A stretch of DNA of 64,000 nt, taken from Nitrosospira sp. (lineage in GTDB: Bacteria > Pseudomonadota > Gammaproteobacteria > Burkholderiales > Nitrosomonadaceae). Below, in pieces: positions 46,196 through 58,669 of the stretch (position 1 is the stretch's first letter; each line of letters starts with the position of its first letter). The stretch lies in the NCBI GenBank assembly GCA_013821425.1, contig JACDGV010000015.1:1-64000 (forward strand), written 5' to 3'. The notes under the pieces are model-generated. The model was not told where the DNA came from. It saw only the letters and a program-made list of their open reading frames with translations, and did not search any database. The position numbers and the translations under genes were made by a program.

Positions 46196-46223
46196 TTGAT
46201 TCCCGCGAAATGGGGTCTATAAT
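46196..46223 (+). promoter_or_regulatory. sigma-70 promoter of the decarboxylase transcript
   Basis: TTGATT (46196-46201), 16 bases, then a perfect TATAAT (46218-46223). Transcription should start near 46230, about 38 bases before a leader ORF with a strong ribosome site. The region upstream (45904-46190) has no gene. Confidence 0.75.
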
Positions 46224-46267
46224 CCGCTTTTTTTATCGATACCCAAGTCAAAGAACAGGAGGTCATC

Positions 46268-46333
46268 ATGACAAGCAAAGCAAACTATTTCGCCCCGGCT
46301 GATCTGGTAAATATTCATGTTCCTGTAACGTAG
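46268..46333 (+). CDS. 21-codon leader peptide upstream of the decarboxylase
   Basis: ATG 46268 is preceded by a near-perfect Shine-Dalgarno sequence, AGGAGG, seven bases upstream. The peptide starts MTSKANYFAP, ends VNIHVPVT and is followed by a TAG at 46331-46333, 19 bases before the decarboxylase ATG. It has no signal peptide. A short, efficiently translated ORF between a strong promoter and a polyamine-pathway gene suggests translational coupling, attenuation or ligand-dependent stalling. This is by analogy to the known speFL leader of speF, which is not homologous in sequence. I infer the role; only the ORF, ribosome site and promoter are seen. Confidence 0.5.
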   Translation: MTSKANYFAPADLVNIHVPVT

Positions 46334-46352
46334 CCTCGCTAAGGACACTCTC

Positions 46353-58582: not shown

Positions 58583-58669
58583 TGGTGCCCAGAAGAGGAC
58601 TCGAACCTCCACAGTGTTGCCACCGCTAGGACCTGAACCTAGTGCGTCTACCAATTCCGCCATCTGGGC
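58583..58669 (-). tRNA. tRNA-Leu (anticodon CAG)
   Basis: The minus strand reads GCCCAGATGGCGGAATTGG at the 5' end, with an anticodon arm CTAGG-TTCAGGT-CCTAG (anticodon CAG), a long variable arm of the class II type, GGTTCGAGTC in the T-loop, and the acceptor partner TCTGGGC followed by discriminator A and an encoded CCA. The total is 87 nt with CCA. Confidence 0.95.

Follow-up and report, generated by a model that had tools for sequence, protein, structure and literature searches.

Translated leaders control polyamine synthesis in eukaryotes and, among bacteria, in gammaproteobacteria (SpeFL) and probably also in alphaproteobacteria (odc1). In gammaproteobacteria, the SpeFL (orf34) peptide is described as sensing ornithine and inhibiting RF1 (PMC8429421, partial text), and regulation of Salmonella speF involves Rho, a sequestered ribosome binding site (RBS) and two Arg codons (PMC6386406, partial text). 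In alphaproteobacteria, odc1 (uORF-25-1) encodes a conserved short peptide beside the start of ornithine decarboxylase (ODC); this uORF has a fixed length of 11 amino acids from a UUG codon, begins 2 nt before the UUG of ODC and is preceded by a conserved stem with a pseudoknot (PMC8632094, partial text). MdtU, the uORF of the E. coli spermidine exporter mdtJI, is most strongly conserved at its C-terminus (PMC7815308, partial text). The nascent peptide of TnaC, the leader of tnaCAB, blocks release at its own stop codon (PMC8429421, partial text), and polyamine-linked pausing is reported for the eukaryotic uORFs AMD1 MAGDIS and yeast HOL1 (PMC13025110, partial text).

The window (the whole stretch of 64,000 nucleotides analysed here) carries a short ORF ahead of a decarboxylase gene, which a first-pass annotation had proposed as a leader unrelated to SpeFL. 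The promoter, AGGAGG site, 21-codon ORF, 19-nt gap and decarboxylase start that it had described were all found where it placed them (Table 1). With SpeFL, this leader shares its position as a short ORF before ornithine decarboxylase and a UAG stop (here in 54/55). The absence of kinship to SpeFL also held up: no local alignment was obtained at E values up to 100, and SpeFL is a 34-residue peptide whose stop lies 257 nt before speF (E. coli K-12), whereas 12-28 nt separate the present leader from ODC. The Rho use, sequestered RBS and two Arg codons of Salmonella speF were not seen in the present leader, judged from its sequence only. To our knowledge, SpeF and fold-III ODC are unrelated, and the ODC found here is probably of a different class from that of the SpeFL-type system. 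In contrast to odc1, the leader spans 13-24 amino acids, starts with AUG, is finished 12-28 nt before ODC and shows no detected structure. A search of the leader against Rfam gave no match at E values up to 5, which bears on odc1 only as far as odc1 is included in Rfam. The leader resembles MdtU as a polyamine-related uORF with C-terminal conservation; MdtU differs in having 33 amino acids, another C-terminus, a tie to Rho termination and an exporter as its target.

The present leader can be likened to TnaC by its putative class of mechanism; TnaC responds to L-Trp and involves RF2. The uORFs of AMD1 (MAGDIS) and yeast HOL1 are eukaryotic and scanning-based, and no homology to the present leader is implied. 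One feature of the class of nascent-chain arrest leaders is evident, namely a short ORF in cis upstream of ODC (111/112 stretches in the scan described below). By analogy, the leader may act like TnaC or SpeFL, but it belongs to neither family. No prior description of it was present among the literature matches listed, which cover the literature in part. If borne out, it would represent a further, separate invention of a translated polyamine leader in ammonia oxidisers and related betaproteobacteria.

Table 1. Features of the leader and decarboxylase locus, in window coordinates.
Feature	Position	Strand	Details or support
Sigma-70-type promoter, TTGATT-16-TATAAT	46196..46223	+	-35 TTGATT 46196-46201, -10 TATAAT 46218-46223
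Leader RBS and start region, AGGAGG-TCATC-ATGACAAG	46257..46275	+	Nucleotide-level conservation; AGGAGG 46257-46262, 5-nt spacer TCATC, leader ATG at 46268
Leader ORF, 21 sense codons and TAG, MTSKANYFAPADLVNIHVPVT	46268..46333	+	Peptide conservation, in-frame pN/pS; stop TAG 46331-46333
Constrained C-terminal codons and stop, H-V-P-V-T-UAG (ACG TAG)	46316..46333	+	
19-nt spacer, ODC Shine-Dalgarno (SD) sequence AAGGA at 46341-46345	46334..46352	+	
Fold-III PLP decarboxylase (ornithine or ornithine/lysine), 391 aa	46353..47528	+	Pfam PF02784, PF00278

The best solved relative of the decarboxylase by sequence is 2plj, annotated as a lysine/ornithine decarboxylase (E 1.1e-65). All of its NCBIfam matches fall below the cut-off; since none reaches it, the preference for ornithine or lysine is unsettled and "ODC" serves as a working name. 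A glycosyltransferase-like gene lies upstream of the leader and ODC. Downstream, the opposite strand carries a dihydrofolate-reductase-like gene (like the former, below the NCBIfam cut-off) and a thymidylate synthase, assigned by reading an ORF. With gathering thresholds, Rfam matches the window at one place only, a tRNA gene at 58586-58669 on the minus strand. Within the single window, both the ORF and the promoter stay within chance expectation: 166 ORFs of at least 20 amino acids overlap 10 kb, and 7 promoter-like sites occur in 6 kb against 5.0 expected from shuffles. It is the comparison among genomes that settles what a single sequence cannot, and that argues for a real leader and promoter.

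Among 61 relatives searched with the window ODC, the 30 best loci were read, and the 21-residue peptide was present in all 30 (28 by script; L029 and L030 by inspection). We then considered the order as a whole, in which 71 of 399 genomes searched have an ODC match at E 1e-80 or better. Combined with the loci of the first search and one from a class-level search, these yield an ODC-centred set of 97 loci chosen by ODC homology alone (L001-L031 and L053-L118), with G432 and G028 left out of the reading, their ODC being a fragment at a contig end. A leader ending in P-[V/E/L]-T-stop precedes ODC in 64 of the 97 loci, 59 recognised by script and five by eye and counted as present (L031, L064, L066, L075 and the gapped L077). 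The L077-type leader recurs in L166. Presence follows the identity of ODC to that of the window, with the leader in 36/36 loci at 80% or more, 23/28 at 70-79%, 5/20 at 60-69% and 0/13 below; these bins come from the best local match, which for L079-L118 covers only part of ODC. No such peptide was found in the class-level relatives L032-L052 (21 loci from 20/369 genomes, ODC 32-46% identical), which were set aside before the 97-locus counts. The promoter is shared as well: among the 131 distinct upstream regions of at least 120 bases taken from loci with a leader, 92 contain TTGATT-16-TATAAT and 119 an exact TATAAT. All these counts concern related sequences that are not independent samples, and the ODC-centred and scan sets share genomes. 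The first-pass annotation had named conservation of the peptide and of its stop position before decarboxylases of related genomes as checks on its proposal. The peptide proved conserved, and the stop is likewise held in place (see below).

The substitution pattern points in the same direction. In 45 distinct 21-codon ORFs, in-frame pN is 0.229 and pS 0.555, while the other two frames give pN/pS of 0.308/0.325 and 0.322/0.284, ratios near 1. By this measure the leader frame is under protein-level selection. A chance ORF is ruled out by the peptide conservation together with the coding selection, and sequence comparison identifies a conserved leader that codes for protein and is linked to this decarboxylase.

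The conservation of amino acids is centred on the putative arrest site, the C-terminus and stop. Among 55 distinct leaders ending in P-[V/E/L]-T, whose Pro and Thr are fixed by the way they were selected, His occupies position -5 in 50, Ile or Thr position -4 in 51 and Val or Glu position -2 in 54. The stop is TAG in 54 of the 55 and the last (Thr) codon ACG in 48, against backgrounds of 27-29% for TAG (35/119 ODC genes with a complete stop; 160/585 long open frames of the same loci, with stops from a mechanical ORF list) and 23% for ACG, all taken from the same loci without a phylogenetic model. Codons for His, Ile and Pro in the tail differ among leaders in their third base, whereas the stop and the Thr codon are almost constant. 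The penultimate codon (46325-46327 in the window) is always GAA where it encodes Glu (15 of 15), and where it encodes Val it is GTA in 25 of 39, compared with a GTA background of 14%, and therefore the nucleotides ahead of ACGTAG are biased too. Peptide length is mostly 21, with tail-keeping variants of 13, 16, 19, 20, 23 and 24 residues (for example MTADQFNLHIPVT and MTSTRNSGSVVCSLDLPET). Since length varies while the last residues stay, the constraint is set relative to the stop, as would be expected of a termination element.

A genome collection of 84,980 species was scanned with a pattern combining the start region and P-[V/E/D]-T-TAG across a gap of 32-62 bases. As the pattern itself imposes the C-terminus, we used the resulting set for context, length and spacing only. 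It returned 112 stretches, 111 of them directly before ODC; 110 have a same-strand ODC match downstream, and in L140 the ODC N-terminus is reached at the edge of the locus. The sole off-target, L222, is an unrelated match in an Acidobacteria record. By title, the other 111 records are Nitrosospira, Nitrosovibrio and Nitrosomonas, MAGs of betaproteobacteria (one given as Neisseriales) and MAGs labelled no further than Proteobacteria. Nitrosomonas europaea and Nitrosospira multiformis are among the carriers of the leader (L134 and L148). The exact C-terminal pattern, which misses variants including the window's own leader, has 24 occurrences across 61 genomes, and 23 coincide with the ODC leader.

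Spacing between the two genes is tightly held. The distance from the leader stop to the ODC start, the latter assigned by a simple SD criterion, was taken in 170 loci with a leader (59 of the ODC set, 111 of the scan); it is 12-28 nt in 169 of them and 35 nt in the remaining one. The ODC SD core begins 6-13 nt past the leader stop in 103 of 107 distinct spacers. Spacer lengths fall in all three frames, which rules out a frameshift or readthrough fusion into ODC.

RNA structure offers no comparable signal. Four RNAalifold alignments, the two wider ones built from the first 80 sequences, revealed no conserved structure (structure conservation index 0 to 0.25, pseudoknots lying outside the model), the best being the Nitrosospira-group leader with flanks (z -1.94, index 0.25). 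With neither a conserved structure in these alignments nor an Rfam match, a riboswitch or attenuator was rejected. By eye, the scan-set peptides hold no run of regulatory codons of the his/trp attenuator type, and in the window no plus-strand terminator-like site lies between promoter and ODC. A spacer hairpin hiding the ODC SD (CCTCC/GGAGG) looked convincing by eye and was rejected at a mean z of -0.10 over 105 spacers with the 5' part shuffled; the spacer feature left is a pyrimidine-rich tract. Predicted accessibility is the same for the ODC and leader SD sites (0.34 each, 121 loci). Coupling by structure is thus unsupported, as the hairpin does not differ from shuffles and both SDs are equally accessible. 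The pentamer CTACG, complementary to CGTAG at the leader stop (46328-46333), occurs in ODC codons 2-20 of 27 out of 125 loci, where codon shuffling predicts 3.8. The mean longest run of complementarity between the leader stop and early ODC, however, barely differs (3.95 vs 3.80).

The leader is not universal among the ODC loci. Of the 97, 33 are without a tail-bearing leader, and nine of these keep the start motif after loss of the tail (L078-L081, L083, L086, L093, L096 and L097). The first-pass annotation had held that loss of the ORF beside an intact promoter and decarboxylase would speak against a regulatory leader. Such loss did occur in some lineages, as in L100, L102, L103 and L105, which combine TTGATT-16-TATAAT with an ODC of 55-57% identity and no leader; it is not a refutation where the leader is kept. 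On an ODC tree (first 130 residues of 96 loci, built without branch support values), presence and absence of the leader can be accounted for by 6 changes, whereas 200 label shuffles require 27.9 on average and never fewer than 20, which indicates that losses are few and clustered. ODC can evidently do without the leader, given that a third of the loci lack the tail-bearing form, some of them with the same promoter. The losses limit the generality of the leader and do not refute it where it is retained. The L086 tail reads HLSVT followed by a sense codon instead of a stop and looks like decay in progress; in L080, L081 and L083 an ORF of 37-38 amino acids takes the place of the leader, running across the ODC start and terminating with PEP-TAG within ODC; and in L078 and L079 only a seven-codon ORF, MTR[T/A]RNY-stop, is left under the start motif, 72-76 nt before ODC.

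We propose that the leader encodes a nascent peptide that works in cis: its termination would be slow and dependent on RF1, and would gate initiation at ODC. We assign this reading a probability of roughly 0.5. Its components differ in strength. Conservation and coding selection make it nearly certain that this is a real cis leader, which would be translated in vivo. That the peptide sequence matters at termination, which would then be slow, is probable in view of the amino acid tail, the stop-anchored length variation, the UAG/ACG bias and the tight spacing. Ribosomes would bind at the strong AGGAGG and, having made the short peptide, arrive at UAG. Release there would be slowed, possibly in a metabolite-dependent manner, both by H-[I/T]-P-[V/E]-T inside the exit tunnel and by the ACG/UAG context that RF1 reads. 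A ribosome held at the leader stop would cover or crowd the ODC RBS, because the ODC SD sits 6-13 nt past this stop, and would thereby repress ODC. The ribosome footprint usually extends ~15 nt beyond the first P-site base, far enough to reach the ODC SD during a pause with UAG in the A site. A normally terminating ribosome would clear the ODC RBS, or re-initiate at ODC. The sign of regulation, with pausing equal to repression, is deduced from this geometry, and we consider that the odds of a stalled ribosome repressing ODC across the short spacer are about even. The existence of a ligand from the polyamine pathway, guessed from the pathway itself, is put forward more tentatively, at slightly less than even odds. 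The likely signal would be putrescine or spermidine as end product, with ornithine less likely because of the proposed sign.

Taken to its full extent, the leader would act as a bacterial polyamine feedback sensor, in which putrescine or spermidine slows RF1 release at P-[V/E]-T-UAG and the stalled ribosome sits on the ODC RBS; we regard this version as speculative and rather doubtful. If true, such a polyamine sensor would need neither an RNA switch nor Rho, would have a sign opposite to that of SpeFL, and would be an independent bacterial counterpart of the eukaryotic polyamine-responsive uORFs. The simple architecture of peptide, UAG, ~20-nt gap and RBS opens the leader to direct tests with purified translation components, and the short code at its C-terminus could reveal how a few residues tune RF1 release.

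Several other explanations have to be weighed against peptide-dependent termination. The leader could simply deliver re-initiating ribosomes to ODC by translational coupling, with an irrelevant peptide sequence and nothing being sensed. The strong leader SD and the 12-28 nt spacer in all three frames would fit such coupling, as would the nine loci in which the start motif outlasts the C-terminus. However, the amino-acid-level selection, the C-terminus kept across families while length varies, and the biased stop and last codon speak against it, and we consider it unlikely. Somewhat less likely still is induction in the manner of SpeFL, where ornithine would hold the ribosome at the leader stop and raise ODC by blocking Rho or opening a structure. 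The enzyme activity is the same, the leader ends in UAG as SpeFL does, and ornithine arrest of SpeFL with RF1 inhibition is published (PMC8429421, partial text). Yet a distance of 12-28 nt, compared with 257 nt, leaves little room for a Rho site or alternative structure, and neither conserved structure nor sequence similarity to SpeFL was found.

The clear protein-level selection would also suit an independent micropeptide, one that acts in trans and is merely co-transcribed with ODC. Its placement directly upstream of ODC in 111 of 112 stretches, its length of 13-24 amino acids and the lack of any Pfam family at E values up to 1 all argue against this option, which appears improbable. Least probable of all, and by our estimate very unlikely, is an RNA element, whether a riboswitch or a structured leader of the alphaproteobacterial odc1 kind, with an incidental ORF. 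Conservation of the start region at the nucleotide level would agree with it, but the low structure conservation index (0 to 0.25), the empty Rfam search and the in-frame coding selection do not.

The start region is the main weakness of the arrest model, as its conservation hints that the initiation rate matters too and as it has outlived the tail in the nine loci named above. In AGGAGGTCATCATGACAAG (46257-46275), the spacer TCATC is fixed and codons 2, 3 and 6 are nearly invariant at their third base; fixed first codons and a fixed start region are more than a purely C-terminal arrest needs. The region also holds a near-palindrome, TCAT-C-ATGA, and its conservation seems to go beyond the needs of a start site. 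With up to two mismatches, the start motif is present in 68 of the 97 ODC loci, 59 of which end in P-[V/E/L]-T and nine otherwise. Its 14-nt core occurs exactly at 34 places in 41 genomes, 26 at ODC and 8 at other ORFs (87, 87, 87, 100, 143, 195, 16 and 34 codons), none of these 8 with a P-x-T ending. As this core also serves other ORFs (8/34), the motif may simply be a strong start site. An 18-nt version was found in 18 of 300 genomes, at one place each; 17 of these places lie beside ODC, and in the remaining one (G682) the leader is cut by the contig end. Across the 14-nt, 18-nt and C-terminal motif searches, no tail-bearing leader was found before any gene other than ODC. Four relatives of the genus to which the window belongs (L246, L248, L249 and L250) carry the same GGAGGTCATCATGA start ahead of one ORF of 87-100 codons (MKTM-EILMTAPPEQVTRCKIA...), which is unrelated to ODC as far as it was read.
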